Positions 6,521 to 50,975 of a stretch of 64,000 bases of DNA are shown piece after piece. Position numbers and translations under genes: made by a program. This stretch comes from a bacterium (lineage in GTDB: Bacteria > CLD3 > SB21), in NCBI GenBank assembly GCA_013360215.1, contig JABWCP010000011.1:25164-89163 (forward strand), in the 5' to 3' direction. The notes below the pieces were generated by a model. It was not told where the DNA came from. It saw only the letters and a list, made by a program, of their open reading frames with translations, and searched no databases. Within the stretch, counting starts at the first letter, position 1. The number at the start of each line of letters is the position of its first letter.

Positions 6521-7180
6521 TCAGTTGGGTGCGTCGGTGATTTTGCCGCCTTCGACACGGATAATGCGTTTGGGAAGCGCCTTCACGATGTTATAATCGT
6601 GGGTGGCCATAACGATGGCTGTGCCTTCCGCGTTTATTTTGGTCAGCAGCTGCATGATCTCCATCGAAGTATCCGGATCAAGATTACCGGTCGGTTCGTC
6701 AGCGAGGATCACCATCGGTTCGTTGACAAGTGCGCGTGCGATGACGACGCGCTGTTGTTCGCCGCCGGATAATTCGTACGGCATGCTGTTCTTTTTGGTG
6801 GAAAGCCCTACTTGGGCCAGTGCACGCATCACTTTTTTCGGAATTTCGCTTTTGGGCGTCTCCGTGACGAGCAACGTAAACGCTATATTATCGTAAACCG
6901 AACGATCCCGTAATAACCGAAAATCCTGAAATACAATACCCAGCTGTCGGCGCAGGTAAGGGATTTCCTTTTTTTTGACATTCGATGATTCAAATTCACC
7001 GATGCGCACCTGACCTTCTTCAGGTATGATATCCATATATAATAATTTAAGCAGTGTGCTTTTGCCGGCACCGCTAGGTCCCAACAAATATACGAACTCA
7101 CCCGGAGCGATGCGTAGCGAAGCGTTTTCCAAGCTGGTGCGATTGCGATAACGTACGGTTACGTTTGAAAGTTCGATCAT
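6521..7180 (-). CDS. ftsE: FtsE-like ABC ATPase
   Basis: A 219-residue ABC ATPase with Walker A (GPSGAGKST, residues 34-42), Q-loop ([10 protein letters not shown]), signature (LSGGEQQR), Walker B ([12 protein letters not shown]) and H-loop (ATHDYNI). Length and the FQDFRLL and [11 protein letters not shown] motifs fit FtsE, which with the permease FtsX activates peptidoglycan hydrolases at the divisome. The MacB/LolD family is the alternative. No FtsX-like permease is adjacent; it follows a SPOR-domain lipoprotein by 3 bases. SPOR domains bind denuded septal glycan, so the pairing supports a cell-division role. Confidence 0.8.
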
Positions 7181-7183
7181 CGG

Positions 7184-7909
7184 TTACTCCGCGTCTTTTA
7201 CGACAAACGCTTTGGGAAACGTTTTTTTCAATTCATCGGCTTTCGCGCGGTCCTCAAACCCGCCGATCCATACCTTGTACATACCGTCGGTATGGGAAAT
7301 TTTAGAGCGTACTGATTGTTTGGATTCGGCTTCCGTTTTTGCTTTTTGCGCTGCCGCTTCAGTAGAAAAAGATCCGATTTGAAGCCAGAAAAGTTCTTTA
7401 CCGGAAATCTTCGGCGTAGCCATATCTTTCATTTCATGGATCCACGCATCGGGATAACCGTTTTGTATTAGTTTCTGTTTGGCGGCATCGGCTTCTTCCC
7501 GTGTCATAAAATCGCCGACCCAGACGCGCCACTTGCCGTCGGTTTTGTCATCCAAAACATACACGGCTTTTTTCCATGTGGTATCGGCGGAGAGCGATGT
7601 ATAATTTTTCTGTGCGTTGGAGGGACTGCCTGCAAACACCTGTACGCGGAAACGCGCCTGGATCGTGGGCTCGTAAGTTTTATAAGTGATCGAATCGGGC
7701 GCAGGCGTCATCGGGCTTACCGTATCCGGGGGAGTGATCATATCATTGGGTAGTTTTTCATCGGCCAAAAAATCTAATTTTTCTGATTTATTTTTTTCCG
7801 ACGTCTCAAGCGCTTTGGCAAAGTCGGCATCGGATTTAGCCGCAGGCTGCGTGGTTTTACAAGAAACTACCGTAAGCACAGCCGCAATGGTCACAATCAT
7901 CAAACGCAT
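7184..7909 (-). CDS. Lipoprotein with two SPOR repeats
   Basis: A 241-residue lipoprotein. The signal MRLMIVTIAAVLTVVSC ends in a lipobox with C17. After a low-complexity polar linker there are two SPOR-like repeats. One (about 85-150) begins RFRVQVFAGSPSNAQ and ends WRVWVGDFMTREEADAAK. The other (about 165-238) begins LFWLQIGSFSTEAAAQ and ends YKVWIGGFEDRAKADELK. SPOR domains recognise peptide-free glycan strands at the division septum. It probably sits in the outer or inner membrane facing peptidoglycan. It is cotranscribed with ftsE downstream and with the DUF971 gene 21 bases upstream. Confidence 0.85.
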   Translation of the reverse strand: MRLMIVTIAAVLTVVSCKTTQPAAKSDADFAKALETSEKNKSEKLDFLADEKLPNDMITPPDTVSPMTPAPDSITYKTYEPTIQARFRVQVFAGSPSNAQKNYTSLSADTTWKKAVYVLDDKTDGKWRVWVGDFMTREEADAAKQKLIQNGYPDAWIHEMKDMATPKISGKELFWLQIGSFSTEAAAQKAKTEAESKQSVRSKISHTDGMYKVWIGGFEDRAKADELKKTFPKAFVVKDAE

Positions 7910-9526: not shown

Positions 9527-10138
9527 ATGGAAATTGTTTTAGCAACAAGTAATCCCAAAAAAGTAAAAGAAATGAATGCTATTATGAGCGGGATGCAAGT
9601 CCGGTTCAGACGGCTGAATGAATTTTCTGATGTACCGGAAATCATTGAGGACGGATTGACGTTTAAGGCCAATGCATTAAAAAAAGCGCACGTGATATTT
9701 GAGCATACGGGGATAATGGCGCTCGCGGATGACTCGGGTATCGAAGTGGATGCGCTGGGCGGAAAACCCGGTGTTTTTTCGGCACGGTATGCCGGCCCGT
9801 CACAAGACGATCGTGCTAATCTGGAAAAATTGTTACGGGATACAGAGCATGTGCCGGATGAAAAGCGTACCGCGCGCTTTCATTGCGTCATCGCGCTGGT
9901 GTGGGGTCAAGCCGGTAATGCGATGGAAAAAACATTTCACGGTGTGATGGAAGGCGCGCTTCTGCGTGCGCCGCGCGGAACACATGGTTTTGGCTATGAT
10001 CCTATTTTTATGGTGCCTCAATACGATGGAAAAGCCGCCGCGGAATTAGATCCTGATCTTAAAAATAAAATCAGTCATCGCGGTCGAGCGTTGGAACAGT
10101 TTAAAACATTTTTTGAAAAAGAATTTTCTATACGATGA
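9527..10138 (+). CDS. rdgB: XTP/dITP pyrophosphatase (RdgB/HAM1 family)
   Basis: A 203-residue housekeeping enzyme that hydrolyses non-canonical purine triphosphates (ITP, dITP, XTP) to monophosphates, keeping deaminated bases out of DNA and RNA. Family motifs are the start VLATSNPKKVKEM, TFKANALKKA, ADDSGIEVDALGG, PGVFSARYAG and GFGYDPIF, and SHRGRAL at the end. I choose the ATG at 9527, which has GGAG at 9516-9519; the frame is open ten codons further upstream without conserved sequence. The stop overlaps the next start by four bases (ATGA). Confidence 0.95.
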   Translation: MEIVLATSNPKKVKEMNAIMSGMQVRFRRLNEFSDVPEIIEDGLTFKANALKKAHVIFEHTGIMALADDSGIEVDALGGKPGVFSARYAGPSQDDRANLEKLLRDTEHVPDEKRTARFHCVIALVWGQAGNAMEKTFHGVMEGALLRAPRGTHGFGYDPIFMVPQYDGKAAAELDPDLKNKISHRGRALEQFKTFFEKEFSIR

Positions 10139-10914
10139 AAAATAACCTTTTTAAAATTACATCCGTTCTAGCGGTGACGCTCATCGGTATCGTGGTGAGC
10201 TGCAAAAATGATCAAACAAAAAATTCGGTCAACCTATCGGCCGATTCAAACATCGTAAAAAACGATACAATGTTGCTATCCAAAGTAATGCCTAAAGGGA
10301 TTATTACACGATTGCCGGGTTCAGATTCGGTTGTAGCGCTGACATTGGATGCCTGTGAGTCACTGATCCCTTCTTATTTTGACACTACGATTTTAAACTA
10401 TTTGTTGCTTGAGCGTATTCCGTTTACTCTGTTTATGACGGGCAATTTTGCCGTACGAAATCGGGAGACATTACGTATGTTGGCGGGTTATGAATGGATA
10501 GATATTCAAAATCATTCCTACCATCATCACCTGCACATGGAGTCGCTGAGTGACAGTGCGGTTGTAGCCGAAGTGAGATCGGCGGAAGATACTATTTTTT
10601 CGATCACGGGCCGACGAACAAAGTTGTTTCGTTTTCCGGGCGGAAATTACGATACGCTGACATTAAATCGTGTCGAACACTTGGGCTATCGCGTCGTCCA
10701 CTGGAGTTTCGAAAGTGGGGATCCGGACAAAAAAATTACGCCACAAAAGATGATTCCGTGGGTTACATCCAAAACACGACCGGGGGGTATTTTGATTTTT
10801 CATATCAACGGCCGCGGGTATGCTACAGGCAAGGCTTTACCGGAAATCGTCACGCATCTGCGTAACACCGGTTATCACTTTGCGAAGCTTAATGACTACA
10901 CCTTCGCCGAATAA
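10135..10914 (+). CDS. Lipoprotein polysaccharide deacetylase (NodB-like)
   Basis: A 259-residue lipoprotein (lipobox VVSC, C23) with a NodB-homology domain. Motif 1 is ALTLDACES, where D72 would be the general base; the second Asp of the usual TFDD is Ala. Motif 2 is NHSYHHH (H127 and H131 as metal ligands). Motif 3 is FRFPGGNYD, and ILIFHI supplies the last His. The TLDAC form occurs in a recognised subgroup, so activity is plausible with a changed metal site. The likely substrate is an N-acetylated envelope polysaccharide or peptidoglycan. It is translationally coupled to rdgB and meets the MoxR-type gene tail to tail. Confidence 0.8.
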   Translation: MKNNLFKITSVLAVTLIGIVVSCKNDQTKNSVNLSADSNIVKNDTMLLSKVMPKGIITRLPGSDSVVALTLDACESLIPSYFDTTILNYLLLERIPFTLFMTGNFAVRNRETLRMLAGYEWIDIQNHSYHHHLHMESLSDSAVVAEVRSAEDTIFSITGRRTKLFRFPGGNYDTLTLNRVEHLGYRVVHWSFESGDPDKKITPQKMIPWVTSKTRPGGILIFHINGRGYATGKALPEIVTHLRNTGYHFAKLNDYTFAE

Positions 10915-20950: not shown

Positions 20951-22540
20951 ATGAAGAAAATCGATTTTTTAGATTGGTCACTTGACGCTTGGTTTTTAGC
21001 GTTATGTTTGATGTTGTGTTTAACATGTATGGCCTTCAGTTGTTCATTGAACGCACAGGAAAAAGACACGGTTATTTTGCGCGACTCCGCTGTAACCGAG
21101 GGCGACAGCGTGGACACGTTTAATGCCACAGTACAGAATGTGGTGAATGAAACTCGACGTATCGTCAAACGACGCGCCCAAGCCGCATCGCGTTTTCTGA
21201 ACGAACGCTACATCATCGTCATTGACCCAGGCCATGGCGGCACAAAGTACATAGACAAAGGGAATTCGGCCAAATTGGATGGCATCGAATACCACGAAAA
21301 AGACATGATGTTTGAATATGCACAGCTAGTGGAGAAAAAATTAGCCGCGGCAGGATATGAAGGACTGCGAAAAACGAAAGAAGCGGCGGATGATTCGTCG
21401 CTATCCATTTACACGCGTGCCGGTCGTGCGGCCAAATTCGGAAAAGATGCAGGCAAAAAAGTTCTTTTTGTCAGCCTCCACTGGAATAATTTTGAAGATC
21501 CTTCGGTCGGCGGTACGGAGATATATATCAAAGAAAGTCAAAATTACAAAAGTCGTAAATTGGCGGAATTTCTGCGCGGTTCGATGAGTCATATTTTACA
21601 AATGCACGGTGCCGGTCAAAATATTACGGGTATCGTCGAACGCGATTATCGTGTGCTGCGCGAAATGGATACCGGTGTTTTGATCGAAATCGGGTACGCA
21701 AGCAACCCCGGCGACCTCCGAAAGATGCTGTCACAAAAAGACGAGATTGCCACCGCTATTGTCAATGGCATTGATGCGTTTGCGGAATATATGCAGGAAC
21801 AAGAGGCGCAAAAACAAATGCCCAATGATGATCCCAAAAAAGCGGCTGAGGATGCCAAGTTAGCCGAAATCCCGAGCATCCCGTTTGGATGGTCCTGGCG
21901 CAAAAAAGATATTAGCGCCGATGTGGATCATCTGATGAAACGTTACGACGGGATGTACGAAAAGGTCACCACTGAAAAAGAAATTTACCTGACGTTTGAC
22001 TGCGGTTGGGAAAACGGCTATACGCCGAAAATATTAGATGTGCTGAAAGCCAACGAAGTCAAGGCCGCGTTTTTCATTACCGGCGGATATTTGAAGTCGG
22101 CAGAGGATGTCGTGGCGCGTATGGTGCAGGAAGGTCATATCGTCGGCAATCATTCTGTCAACCACCTCAGCATGCCGCAGCTCAAAGTGCGGGAGATGAA
22201 GCGGGAGATTCTTGGTTTAGAGCAGGATTTTTATGATCTTTTTGAAATGAAAATGAATTATTTCCGTCCGCCCAGCGGCGAATGGAGTCGTCGTTCGCTG
22301 GCCGTGACCCAGGCGCTGGGATATAAGACCGTATTTTGGTCGTTTGCGTACGATGATTGGGATGTGCAGGCACAACATGGGCGGGATTATGCATACAAAA
22401 AAATCACCCAAAATGTTCGCCCCGGCGTCATTATTCTGTTGCATGCGGTATCAAAGGATAATTTTGAAGCATTAGACGCCGTGATCAAAGATCTGCGCAA
22501 AGACGGTTATGTATTTAAGAGTTTGGATGAAATCAAATAA
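20951..22540 (+). CDS. Amidase-deacetylase fusion: CwlD-like plus PdaA-like
   Basis: A 529-residue envelope enzyme with an N-terminal hydrophobic segment (about 13-36; signal peptide or anchor). Residues about 87-283 are an Amidase_3 N-acetylmuramoyl-L-alanine amidase with zinc and catalytic signatures DPGHGG (92-97), YHEKD, SLHWN (175-179) and LIEIGYASN. After an acidic linker, residues about 310-529 match PdaA, the muramic-delta-lactam deacetylase of Bacillus: FGWSW, IYLTFDCGWENGYT (catalytic D350), GNHSVNH, FRPPSGEWS, VFWSFAYDDW, and the LLHAVSKDN ending. In Bacillus separate CwlD and PdaA act in sequence, amidase then deacetylase/cyclase, to make muramic delta-lactam. The fusion suggests the same pathway. 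It starts the operon running to 25856. Confidence 0.9.
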   Translation: MKKIDFLDWSLDAWFLALCLMLCLTCMAFSCSLNAQEKDTVILRDSAVTEGDSVDTFNATVQNVVNETRRIVKRRAQAASRFLNERYIIVIDPGHGGTKYIDKGNSAKLDGIEYHEKDMMFEYAQLVEKKLAAAGYEGLRKTKEAADDSSLSIYTRAGRAAKFGKDAGKKVLFVSLHWNNFEDPSVGGTEIYIKESQNYKSRKLAEFLRGSMSHILQMHGAGQNITGIVERDYRVLREMDTGVLIEIGYASNPGDLRKMLSQKDEIATAIVNGIDAFAEYMQEQEAQKQMPNDDPKKAAEDAKLAEIPSIPFGWSWRKKDISADVDHLMKRYDGMYEKVTTEKEIYLTFDCGWENGYTPKILDVLKANEVKAAFFITGGYLKSAEDVVARMVQEGHIVGNHSVNHLSMPQLKVREMKREILGLEQDFYDLFEMKMNYFRPPSGEWSRRSLAVTQALGYKTVFWSFAYDDWDVQAQHGRDYAYKKITQNVRPGVIILLHAVSKDNFEALDAVIKDLRKDGYVFKSLDEIK

Positions 22541-22556
22541 AGAACGATGAGAGCGA

Positions 22557-23297
22557 ATGGGTACACATGATCAAACGGCGGATGCCGTACTCCCCAAACC
22601 GGAAGAAAAAAAACAATACGTACGCGCCATGTTTGACGGCGTGGCGTCAAAGTATGACTTTCTCAATCATTTATTGAGTCTCGGTATTGATATTTATTGG
22701 CGCCGTCGTGCCCTGAAACTGATCAATTTTTCGATGAATCCGAAATTGCTGGATTTAGCCACCGGCACGGGCGATGTGGCGATCATGGCTATACGTATGG
22801 GTGCGCAACATGTGTACGGTGTGGATTTATCGGAAGGGATGTTGGCCTACGGGCGAAAAAAAATCGAAAAAGAAAAAATGACGGATGCGATCGATATGAT
22901 CTGTGGTGAGGGCGAACGCATACCGATGGAAGATGCGTGTGTGGACGCTTCGACGATCGCTTTCGGCATTCGTAATGTCGTGGATATCCCGCAAACGCTG
23001 CGCGAAATGGCGCGTGTGACCAAAACATCGGGCATGATCGTGGTGCTCGAGTTTTCCCAACCGCAATGGCCGGTGATGAAGCAGTTGTACCAATTCTACT
23101 TTACGCAAGTTCTTCCGCGCATTGGTTCTCTCTTTTCCAAAGATAAAAAGGCGTATCATTATTTGCCGGCGTCGGTGATGCGTTTCCCGGCACGTGACGA
23201 GTTTGCTCACATGATGGAACAAGCCGGCTATACCAACGTTCGTCATTTTGATATGACGCTGGGTATCGTGACAGTTTATTCCGGCATCAAATTGTAA
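22557..23297 (+). CDS. menG: Demethylmenaquinone/ubiquinone C-methyltransferase
   Basis: A 246-residue SAM-dependent methyltransferase of the UbiE/MenG family, which performs the last methylation of menaquinone (or a ring methylation of ubiquinone). Signatures are MFDGVASKYDFLNHLLSLGID, RRRALKLI, LLDLATGTGDVA, TIAFGIRNV, LEFSQP and RIGSLFSKDKKAYHYLP near the end. Menaquinone is the likelier substrate for this kind of organism. It starts 16 bases after the amidase-deacetylase stop. Confidence 0.94.
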   Translation: MGTHDQTADAVLPKPEEKKQYVRAMFDGVASKYDFLNHLLSLGIDIYWRRRALKLINFSMNPKLLDLATGTGDVAIMAIRMGAQHVYGVDLSEGMLAYGRKKIEKEKMTDAIDMICGEGERIPMEDACVDASTIAFGIRNVVDIPQTLREMARVTKTSGMIVVLEFSQPQWPVMKQLYQFYFTQVLPRIGSLFSKDKKAYHYLPASVMRFPARDEFAHMMEQAGYTNVRHFDMTLGIVTVYSGIKL

Positions 23298-25926: not shown

Positions 25927-28272
25927 ATGTATAAAATGTTAGTAAAGAATTTAATTTTTTTAGCGTTGTTTGTTACCGTCGCTGTAGTCACTGGCCAAGA
26001 AACCGGTGTGATCACGGGCGTGGTCATTGACGCGAAAACCAAAGAGTATCTTGCCGGAGTGAATGTGCAGATACTGGGCACAACGCGCGGAACGGTAGCC
26101 GATATCAACGGGCAGTACCGGTTGGATAAATTGGCCGGTGGGACATACCGCCTGCAATTTTCACTGATCGGATATGCGCCGCTCATCAAGACCGATGTCA
26201 TTGTCACGGGGAACAAGCCGTTTCGGCTCAATGTTGCAATGGAAGCGGAAAGTATCGAAGGCGACGAAGTGATCGTAACGGCGGGATATTTTGAAGAGCA
26301 AAATCAAACTAAGACGAGCACGGCTAATCTATCCCGTGAAGAAATACGGCGATTTCCCGGCGGTTTTGAAGACGTCGTGCAAACAGTGGCTACACTGCCC
26401 GGTGTGGCGGTCAATGGCGGCGGTGGACGCAATGATTTACTGGTGCGCGGCGGCGGTCCGTCAGAAAATTTGTATATCGTCAACGGGTTGGAAATTCCCA
26501 ATATCAATCACTTTGGCACGCAGGGAAACAACGGCGGTTCGCTGAGTTTCATTAACCTGGATTTCGTGGATAATGTTGATTTTTCGACAGGCGGTTTTTC
26601 GGCACGGTACGGTGACAAGATGTCATCCGTCACACAACTTACATTGCGAAGCGGACGCGATGATCGTATCGGCGGTAAAGGGCTGATCTCGGCGACGCAA
26701 TTTGGCGTCAACACCGAAGGACCATTGGGAAAAAGCGGAAACTTTATCATGTCGGCCCGACGGAGTTATCTGGATTTTATTTTCAAAGCCGCCGGATTTG
26801 CTTTCGTGCCGAGGTACACGGATTTTAATGTGATCGGTCAATACGAACCATCGCCGCGTGATAAATTCACTTTTCTCGCATTGACGGCACTTGATGATGT
26901 GAGTAAAAATAATGAAAAACGGAAAGATCGTATTTTTAATTCCGGGCTTCTTGATAATGAACAATTCATACAAGTCGTCGGTGCCAGTTACCAGCACAAC
27001 CTTGAAAAAGGATTTTGGCAGGCTACAGCCAATGTCAATTTTTCAGGATATCGTTTTTCACAAAAAGATACGACGCTGCGCGAATATTATAACAGCCGTG
27101 CCAACGAAGTGGAAACGAATGCTTCCGTTCAGCGGTATTTTGTGATTAATAAATCCATGGGTATTTTGACCGGATTGAGTATGAAATCCGTCAATAATCG
27201 CAATGAAACCGTATTTGGTGATACGATCGTGGATCGCAACGGTAATCGTATACCCGCGGATTCGCTGGGCCTAGCGGGATTGGATGAAACACGTGCGTCA
27301 GCGTATAAATACGGCGGGTTTACGGAAATGGATTGGGTCGTGTCGCCGCGCCTCAATGCTAATGCAGGTTTACGCGTAGATCGGTACTCGGCTTTGGAAA
27401 AAACAACGTATGTTGCTCCGCGTTTGGCATTCAAATATAAAATATCGGACAAATCCAATCTTAAATTGAGCGGCGGAACCTATTATCAATCGCCATCGTA
27501 CGTATGGTTAGTCAATCCGGCTAATAAAAAACTCAAAGCATTGCGCAACGACATGGTCGTAGCGGGTGCGGACCGTTTATTGCGTCCGGATGTGAAGTTA
27601 TCCATTGAGACATATTACAAAAAGTACAGTCATCTGCCGACCGGAACACAACAAGGTATCAATGATTATATCGTCATTACAAGCACCGGCACCGGGTTTG
27701 GTGGGCGCGAAGATAATTTTCAATCCTTCGGATATACGACGTTGGTTTCGCGTGCAACTGGAAAAGCGTTTGGTGTCGAAATGTTACTTCAAAAGAAATT
27801 TTCTGACATACCATGTTACGGTCAAATCAGTATTACGGTGGGTAAAAGTACAGTGGTAGCGGGTAACGGTAAAACCTATCCCAATCCGTTTGATCAGCGC
27901 TTTATTTTAAATGTTTCCGGCGGTTATAAATTGAATACCAAATGGGAATTCAGCGGTAAGTTTCGCTATTTTACCGGCGCTCCGTATACACCGGTTTATC
28001 GTCCTCAGGATAATCCCGTGCAACCGGGTGTCGTTCAAAATCTTCCGGATGAGTACCTTTCCAAACGTCTGGGAGCGAGCCATCATCTGGACTTACGCGC
28101 GGATCGGTATTTTAATTATGAACATTGGCGGCTTATTATTTTTATGGACGTACAAAATGTATATAACTACAAAGTCAAAACGCCGCCGTCGTACGATTTC
28201 GCGGAGGATAAAGTGACCCGTGGTGATCGCATAGGGATACTGCCTACGATCGGTATCAGTGCTGAATTTTAA
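25927..28272 (+). CDS. TonB-dependent outer-membrane receptor
   Basis: A 781-residue outer-membrane transporter. The order is a signal peptide (to about residue 24), a CarboxypepD_reg-like beta-sandwich (about 28-105: GVVIDAKTKEYLAGVNVQI, GQYRLDKLAGGTYRL), and a plug domain (about 118-235: ATLPGVAVNGGGGRNDLLVRGGG, GGFSARYGDKMSSV). A 22-strand-type barrel follows, ending in an aromatic C-terminus (GISAEF). There is no SusD-like partner, so it is not a canonical polysaccharide-utilisation receptor. The next genes encode a peptidase and a sigma-like factor, so a peptide or metal substrate is possible but unproven. Energy would come from TonB/ExbB/ExbD encoded elsewhere. Confidence 0.92.
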   Translation: MYKMLVKNLIFLALFVTVAVVTGQETGVITGVVIDAKTKEYLAGVNVQILGTTRGTVADINGQYRLDKLAGGTYRLQFSLIGYAPLIKTDVIVTGNKPFRLNVAMEAESIEGDEVIVTAGYFEEQNQTKTSTANLSREEIRRFPGGFEDVVQTVATLPGVAVNGGGGRNDLLVRGGGPSENLYIVNGLEIPNINHFGTQGNNGGSLSFINLDFVDNVDFSTGGFSARYGDKMSSVTQLTLRSGRDDRIGGKGLISATQFGVNTEGPLGKSGNFIMSARRSYLDFIFKAAGFAFVPRYTDFNVIGQYEPSPRDKFTFLALTALDDVSKNNEKRKDRIFNSGLLDNEQFIQVVGASYQHNLEKGFWQATANVNFSGYRFSQKDTTLREYYNSRANEVETNASVQRYFVINKSMGILTGLSMKSVNNRNETVFGDTIVDRNGNRIPADSLGLAGLDETRASAYKYGGFTEMDWVVSPRLNANAGLRVDRYSALEKTTYVAPRLAFKYKISDKSNLKLSGGTYYQSPSYVWLVNPANKKLKALRNDMVVAGADRLLRPDVKLSIETYYKKYSHLPTGTQQGINDYIVITSTGTGFGGREDNFQSFGYTTLVSRATGKAFGVEMLLQKKFSDIPCYGQISITVGKSTVVAGNGKTYPNPFDQRFILNVSGGYKLNTKWEFSGKFRYFTGAPYTPVYRPQDNPVQPGVVQNLPDEYLSKRLGASHHLDLRADRYFNYEHWRLIIFMDVQNVYNYKVKTPPSYDFAEDKVTRGDRIGILPTIGISAEF

Positions 28273-50018: not shown

Positions 50019-50975
50019 TTGAACGTGGAAGAAAAAAAGAAATCGCCGCACAAATATGTCACACTTCTGGTGATGTTTGATGCCGTTTCCGATCCCCGGA
50101 GTTTTCGCCTTAAAGTTTCAACGCTGCGCGTGATGCTCGGTACATTGGCTGTAGTAGGTCTTGTGCTGGCCGGTTCTTTGATATACTATTTTTCGTTTGC
50201 CTATAAGGTGTTTTATTACGACGAGCTGGAGCGTAAATACGAAAAGCTCGCCGAAGATAATACCCGGATCAAGCAGATCGAACGCGAGTACCGTAAGGTC
50301 AAGCAGGAGAATGAAAAAATCCGCATCGTGTTTGGTTTGCTGAAAAACATGCCCCGGGACACGACGTACGAAGGCCGCTCAACGTATGAAAATTTTACGG
50401 CGCCGAGTGAAATGGGATATTATCCCGGCAAAGACCTCAACGATCCGATGCATGAAAAAATGGCGGAGGATATCAGCAGCGATGTCGGCCGTATCGGTAT
50501 AGATTATTTATCCTACGCCCGCGTCGTGCCCACGTTGATGCCGGTTAACAGCCGCTTTATTGCGCGCGGTTATCAGGATAACCGTTACAACGATCCGTCG
50601 GCTACACGCATACATCGCGGTGTGGACATCGTGGCGGAGGAAGGCGCGCCGGTCAAGGCCGCTTCCGAAGGTCGGGTGATCGTTTCGGAATGGTTTACCG
50701 ACTACGGCAATACGATCGTCCTGTATCATGGATTCGGTTTTTTTTCAGTGTATAAACATTTGCAATTTCGCCTGAAAGAAACGGATGATGCGGTCAAGAC
50801 GGGTGAAGTGATCGGCACGGTCGGTAAGACCGGGCGTTTGGCAACAGGTATTCATTTACATTTTGAAATATGGCGCGACGGCGTGCCGCGGGATCCGGCG
50901 ACTTTTATACCGCAGATCCGCGATGCGCTGGTGATCACGGTGAAAGCCGACTCACTCGCCAAAAAAAGCAGTTAA
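50019..50975 (+). CDS. M23-family peptidase (LytM) with N-terminal anchor
   Basis: A 318-residue envelope protein. One membrane helix (about 36-58) is followed by a coiled coil (about 68-110), then an M23/LytM domain (about 195-300). The zinc ligands are in HRGVDI and HLHFEIW, and YGNTIVLYHGFGFFSVYKHL matches the family core, so it appears catalytically complete. It should cleave peptide cross-links in peptidoglycan. Starts are weak: TTG at 50019 or GTG at 50025. It precedes bactofilin by 19 bases; such pairs set cell shape in other bacteria. Confidence 0.88.
   Translation: MNVEEKKKSPHKYVTLLVMFDAVSDPRSFRLKVSTLRVMLGTLAVVGLVLAGSLIYYFSFAYKVFYYDELERKYEKLAEDNTRIKQIEREYRKVKQENEKIRIVFGLLKNMPRDTTYEGRSTYENFTAPSEMGYYPGKDLNDPMHEKMAEDISSDVGRIGIDYLSYARVVPTLMPVNSRFIARGYQDNRYNDPSATRIHRGVDIVAEEGAPVKAASEGRVIVSEWFTDYGNTIVLYHGFGFFSVYKHLQFRLKETDDAVKTGEVIGTVGKTGRLATGIHLHFEIWRDGVPRDPATFIPQIRDALVITVKADSLAKKSS

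Follow-up and report, generated by a model that had tools for sequence, protein, structure and literature searches.

A fused Amidase_3 and PdaA-type deacetylase in an apparently non-sporulating diderm family: a candidate enzyme for muramic delta-lactam formation

The fusion gene and its neighbourhood

Within the window, i.e. the whole stretch of 64,000 nucleotides analysed here, an ORF with an ATG start at 20951..22540 (+) encodes a 529-aa, predicted exported protein in which an Amidase_3 domain is followed by a PdaA-type CE4 domain. Pfam assigns residues 89-275 to Amidase_3, with 101 bits (cut-off 27) and a whole-protein E value of 8e-29, and residues 339-461 to Polysacc_deac_1 (PF01522), with 120 bits (cut-off 23) and an E value of 8.2e-35, and gave no match to deacetylase families other than PF01522 at E values up to 1. 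That an amidase and a PdaA-like deacetylase share one chain, as the preliminary description had proposed, is borne out by the single ORF, the two domains and the retention of the arrangement in 7/7 genomes of the family. The structure model used was an AlphaFold2 prediction from 50 sequences (pLDDT 85.9), whose pTM of 0.63 does not establish how the domains sit with respect to each other; an earlier model from seven sequences (pLDDT 64.6) was too weak for use.

The protein begins with a hydrophobic helix (residues 10-32, FLALCLMLCLTCMAF; 20978..21046 (+)), recognized from the DSSP assignment of the model and from the sequence, which may be a signal peptide or a signal anchor; short signal-like N-termini are present in the fusion relatives as well. 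In the model, a charged helix (residues 51-86; 21101..21208 (+)) then runs into the amidase domain proper (residues 87-282; 21209..21796 (+)), as delimited by Pfam, model, fold and spacing. Its predicted zinc ligands are His95 (21233..21235 (+)), Glu116 (21296..21298 (+)) and His177 (21479..21481 (+)), and its predicted catalytic residue is Glu246 (21686..21688 (+)). An inter-domain linker that is part helix in the model and varies among relatives (residues 283-306; 21797..21868 (+)) leads to the CE4 domain (residues 307-529; 21869..22537 (+)), which contains Asp350 (21998..22000 (+)), Cys351 (22001..22003 (+)), the predicted metal ligands His401 and His405 (22151..22165 (+)), Arg439 (22265..22267 (+)), Arg490 (22418..22420 (+)) and, eight residues further on, the catalytic His498 (22442..22444 (+)). 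The motifs lie where they had been placed at first, both in the amidase (DPGHGG at 92-97, with His95; SLHWN at 175-179, with His177; and LIEIGYASN at 244-252, with Glu246) and in the deacetylase (TFDCGWENGYT at 348-358, GNHSVNH at 399-405, RPPSGEWS at 439-446 and LLHAVSKDN at 496-504).

A ubiE/menG-type methyltransferase gene, assigned by profile, starts 16 bp downstream (22557..23297 (+)) and is likely co-transcribed with the fusion gene, a functional link between the two not being obvious. The fusion-ubiE order is kept in the genus g4 relatives (L008, L014 and L015) and is not kept in the genus g2 relative (L017). Since the neighbours (ubiE, FTCD_C, a GAF-phosphatase matching Pfam SpoIIE, and DUF4442) are not wall genes and their order differs in genus g2, operon logic was set aside as a guide to the role of the fusion; the name SpoIIE was likewise rejected as a sign of sporulation, being a phosphatase-family label. 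Elsewhere in the window, 7184-7909 (-) and 6521-7180 (-) are adjoining genes for a protein with tandem SPOR domains, a candidate reader of denuded glycan 13 kb from the fusion, and for an FtsE-like ABC ATPase; 50019-50975 (+), 28 kb from the fusion, encodes an M23 peptidase-domain protein that is possibly an amidase activator; and 10135-10914 (+) encodes a second, divergent CE4 protein with 80 bits to TIGR02884 and a long tree branch.

Affinities of the two halves

The assignment of the C-terminal half to the PdaA clade is well supported. Against the PdaA profile TIGR02884 the protein scores 281.9 bits as a whole and 285 bits by domain, which is below the equivalog cut-off of 298 by 13 bits; stand-alone PdaA proteins also fall below that cut-off, seven of the best 30 loci scoring 271-296 bits and further rows 211-251 bits, in SpoIVA-positive genomes. 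Across 386 bacterial genomes, TIGR02884 scores form two groups, one at 261-322 bits and one at <160 bits, and the upper group consists of seven fusions, one spore-former and two genomes of family f38. The other profiles gave 163 bits (PdaB), 117 bits (NodB), 88-103 bits (PgdA) and, in the case of TIGR02873 (ylxY), which we take to cover SwsB, 107-110 bits. In a CE4 tree that took in 30 Bacillota PdaA rows, among them B. subtilis PdaA (BsPdaA), PdaA and the fusions were split from other CE4 proteins at 100/99, a result unchanged when seven long-branch rows were removed. The fusions adjoin Bacilli-type PdaA at 98/76, and a place outside all Bacillota PdaA is not rejected (p-AU 0.218), the two AU tests done on this tree addressing the same split (fusions within or beside Bacillota PdaA); a horizontal transfer appears likely. 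Sequence identity of the fusions is 36-55 % to stand-alone PdaA rows, about 43-44 % to BsPdaA and 36 % to the best generic CE4 row. At 15 PdaA-diagnostic columns, the fusions match at 11-13, the exceptions including the His that is replaced by Arg490, and six generic CE4 proteins match at 0-2. In fold comparison, the model gave Z scores of 33.2 and 33.1 with BsPdaA (1ny1 and 1w17, the former at an rmsd of 1.4 over 223 residues), 29.6 with the Bacillus anthracis CE4 protein 2j13, and ≤28.2 with other CE4 structures. It had been argued beforehand that the C-terminal half follows PdaA and that grouping with chitin or GlcNAc deacetylases would speak against this; profile, tree, diagnostic columns and fold all agree with PdaA and rule out identity as a GlcNAc or chitin deacetylase, the half lying on the PdaA side of the 100/99 split.

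The catalytic residues of BsPdaA have counterparts throughout: the deacetylation set T71, D73 and R166 corresponds to T348, D350 and R439, and the cyclisation residue H222 to H498, all being invariant in the fusions, and Asp350, the equivalent of the deacetylation base, also in all PdaA (roles from PMC12444981). Thus placed, the likeness to B. subtilis PdaA takes in the CE4 fold, the TFDxGYENG/GNHSxxH/RPPxG/LLHxVSxDN frame, the deacetylation and cyclisation residues and the tree grouping, whereas the fusion differs in its attached amidase, in the lack of a spore context, and in two residues. The first of these, Cys351, aligns with the canonical metal-binding Asp of CE4 enzymes; it is Cys in 6/7 fusions and Asn in the seventh (G003), whereas the 30 Bacillota PdaA rows have Asn, Glu, Ala or Leu there. 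The motif TFDCGWENGYT had at first been taken as PdaA-specific, a view that holds for its TFDxGYENG frame and fails for the Cys, which is found in 0/30 Bacillota PdaA, including BsPdaA. MdaA of Agrobacterium, which deacetylates anhydroMurNAc ends, has Cys at the equivalent position (PMC10838918). The second residue, position 490, is Arg in 7/7 fusions and His in 30/30 Bacillota PdaA. Because Cys351 and Arg490 are family-specific substitutions, lactam formation is not to be assumed, and the two may leave the enzyme at plain deacetylation.

The amidase half is a CwlD-shaped but divergent Amidase_3 domain whose sequence does not tie its origin to CwlD. Against the CwlD profile TIGR02883 it scores 60.2-66.2 bits, the cut-off being 221.6 bits, and in the amidase tree CwlD forms one clade (100/99) with the fusions outside it, on a branch of length 3.24; a joint fusion-CwlD clade is not rejected (p-AU 0.514). 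The closest solved folds are C. difficile CD2761 (4rn7; PMC8496864) at Z 23.4 and Rv3717 at 23.1, followed by CwlD at 21.8. The spacing of motifs is nearer to CwlD: 83 residues separate the two His motifs in the fusion, as in the CwlD mode (83), against 69-77 in generic Amidase_3 proteins, and the stretch before the catalytic Glu is 71 residues long, against 65-68 (mode 66) in CwlD and mostly 103-115 in a generic set that leans to AmiC types; no autoinhibitory insert precedes the catalytic Glu. Hence, of the initial description of this half as CwlD-like, the spacing and the missing insert stand, whereas the score far below the cut-off and the existence of closer solved folds do not sit with it, and an orthologue of CwlD could not be certified given 60-66 bits against 222 and a tree that neither shows nor rejects a clade with CwlD. 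Set beside CwlD itself (TIGR02883; C. difficile 7rag and B. subtilis), the fusion shares the Amidase_3 fold, the His spacing, the lack of an insert and a PdaA partner, and differs in score, tree position and slightly lower fold match than to the CD2761/Rv3717 types, and in being covalently joined to PdaA. A profile of the amidase half recovered, across 386 genomes, itself and one weak match (69 bits). The fusion's own genome has three more Amidase_3 genes (L001, L002 and L004), one of AmiC-like length.

Distribution and host

When sought in related genomes, the fusion was present in all seven of the family (four genera), as a two-domain frame of 533-567 aa without internal stops, and it was absent from two genomes of the sister family in the same class. 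Because seven genomes have the same fusion, a chance join, frameshift or assembly artefact is ruled out. Overall identity among the family fusions is 50-62 %, and both catalytic sets (His95, Glu116, His177 and Glu246 in the amidase; Asp350, His401, His405, Arg439 and His498 in the deacetylase) are invariant across the seven, which suggests that both activities are kept by selection. Outside the family, no PdaA-level match lay in a frame of >391 aa (386 + 249 genomes), and no plasmid record covered 80 % of the fusion query. A scan of genome contigs with two amidase-half patterns returned four loci, all belonging to this group by identity, one of them in a record labelled Bacteroidetes bacterium. 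No amidase-PdaA fusion was found in those parts of the literature that our search covered.

The host had been described as an apparently non-sporulating diderm, and the genomes accord with this on both counts. The window contains a lipid A acyltransferase gene and, at 25927-28272, what its ORF translation suggests to be a TonB-type receptor, both of which fit a diderm host. Across the phylum, none of the nine genomes gave a match to SpoIVA, Spo0A_C or the SleB/CwlJ-type Hydrolase_2, whereas B. subtilis served as positive control every time, which argues against a hidden sporulator. SpoIVA was present in 42/42 Bacillota genomes carrying a PdaA match (the Bacillota label of the G334 set being inferred from its genes), and the only PdaA-bearing genomes tested that were without it were those of the fusion family and the two f38 genomes.

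Proposed readings of the enzyme

In the known two-enzyme route, CwlD first bares MurNAc and PdaA then deacetylates and cyclises it; BsPdaA is inactive on unmodified peptidoglycan, as it requires peptide-free MurNAc, and CwlD plus PdaA are enough for delta-lactam both in vitro and in the periplasm of E. coli (PMC10116595). Because PdaA depends on the bared substrate and the two enzymes suffice, the fusion would join two consecutive steps without any further spore factor, and tethering the denuding enzyme to the one that acts on the denuded substrate would be the simplest reason for the fusion. Our main reading, to which we give a probability of about 0.5, is that the protein is a bifunctional periplasmic enzyme that denudes strands, deacetylates MurNAc and probably cyclises it to muramic delta-lactam in the vegetative wall of a diderm; its export, reaction order, cyclisation and role in the cell are matters that we infer. 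The protein would be exported to the periplasm through its hydrophobic N-terminus, where the zinc amidase half would remove peptide from MurNAc and leave a denuded glycan stretch. On that same stretch, the tethered PdaA-type half would use Asp350 and the metal bound by His401 and His405 to deacetylate the bared MurNAc, and His498 would help the free amine to close onto the lactyl carboxylate, yielding muramic delta-lactam. The product might serve to mark or strengthen those parts of the vegetative or septal wall that lack peptides, e.g. against lytic transglycosylases or against SPOR-domain binding.

Judged from sequence, production of delta-lactam by the fusion is plausible. Counting against it, the nine genomes lack a SleB/CwlJ-type hydrolase to read the lactam, and a look for muropeptide data from the lineage returned none; the endospore cortex pathway comes with sporulation genes and such a hydrolase, whereas the fusion hosts are without SpoIVA, Hydrolase_2 and Spo0A_C. 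If the lactam is made here, it is made without spores and so would need a use and a reader of its own. The broader proposal, i.e. that a non-sporulating diderm family makes vegetative-wall muramic delta-lactam with one stripping, deacetylating and cyclising enzyme, for its own use and with its own reader, is accordingly put forward tentatively, at a little under an even chance.

The same two steps might instead stop at the free amine, MurNAc being deacetylated and muramic acid left without ring closure. Such muramic acid would be positively charged, might resist lysozyme or transglycosylases and might alter SPOR binding. Deacetylation is fast and cyclisation slow in both BsPdaA and C. difficile PdaA1 (PMC10116595), so cyclisation could easily be lost, and the lineage-specific Cys351 and Arg490 would suit such a loss, as would the precedent of MdaA, a diderm CE4 enzyme with the equivalent Cys that deacetylates anhydroMurNAc (PMC10838918). 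By description rather than by sequence, MdaA resembles the fusion in being a diderm CE4 protein that acts on a MurNAc-type residue and has Cys at the metal-Asp position, and differs in acting on anhydroMurNAc chain ends and in having no reported amidase domain. However, the equivalents of H222, D73, T71 and R166 are all intact in the fusions, and BsPdaA, SwsB and C. difficile PdaA1 all cyclise, which makes cyclisation widespread among PdaA and its relatives. Work on SwsB and on BsPdaA D73N has shown cyclisation to be independent of the deacetylation base and to require H222 (PMC12444981). SwsB is also related to the fusion through CE4 and closes muramic acid into delta-lactam; it differs in having Asn for the catalytic Asp, which the fusion keeps as Asp350. 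On balance, an enzyme that stops at the amine appears unlikely.

A cell-separation enzyme parallel to E. coli SddA is distinctly improbable. Here a septal amidase would be coupled to deacetylation of GlcNAc, not MurNAc, in denuded strands, and the deacetylation would tune amidase activity or SPOR-domain recruitment. SddA is a periplasmic denuded-strand deacetylase tied to the amidase activator EnvC (PMC12440217), and the SddA/YibQ system with AmiA-C resembles the fusion in pairing an amidase and a deacetylase on the same denuded strand of a diderm periplasm; the window also has the tandem SPOR protein and the M23 protein. Yet SddA/YibQ belongs to PF04748, is GlcNAc-specific and works as a protein separate from the amidases, whereas the fusion belongs to PF01522 and the PdaA clade and PdaA acts on MurNAc; of the window's two candidates, the SPOR gene lies 13 kb and the M23 gene 28 kb from the fusion, and linked genes do not decide the matter. 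Further secretion of the fusion to degrade or modify the peptidoglycan of other bacteria, for nutrients or competition, is very improbable, for, although the protein is likely exported and an amidase without an autoinhibitory insert could be constitutively active, Pfam matched no secretion tag or wall-binding repeat in it, and it is a conserved chromosomal gene with housekeeping neighbours in every family genome.

If, as in our main reading, the fusion makes the PdaA product, then muramic delta-lactam is not spore-specific. In those parts of the literature that were covered, delta-lactam is called spore-unique and none was found outside spores, and PMC6127315 describes the roles of PdaA-like genes in non-sporulators as unexplained; the fusion therefore offers a direct test of delta-lactam outside endospores. 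Having both steps on a single chain would, in addition, make the protein a convenient reagent for preparing cortex-like peptidoglycan and for the study of direct amide-bond formation by PdaA. Apart from the fusion family, the two f38 genomes without SpoIVA (G044 and G189; loci L021 and L022), which are 1.2-1.4 Mb in size, carry an unfused PdaA scoring 304 and 288 bits, and f38 appears to represent a second PdaA lineage outside the endospore formers.
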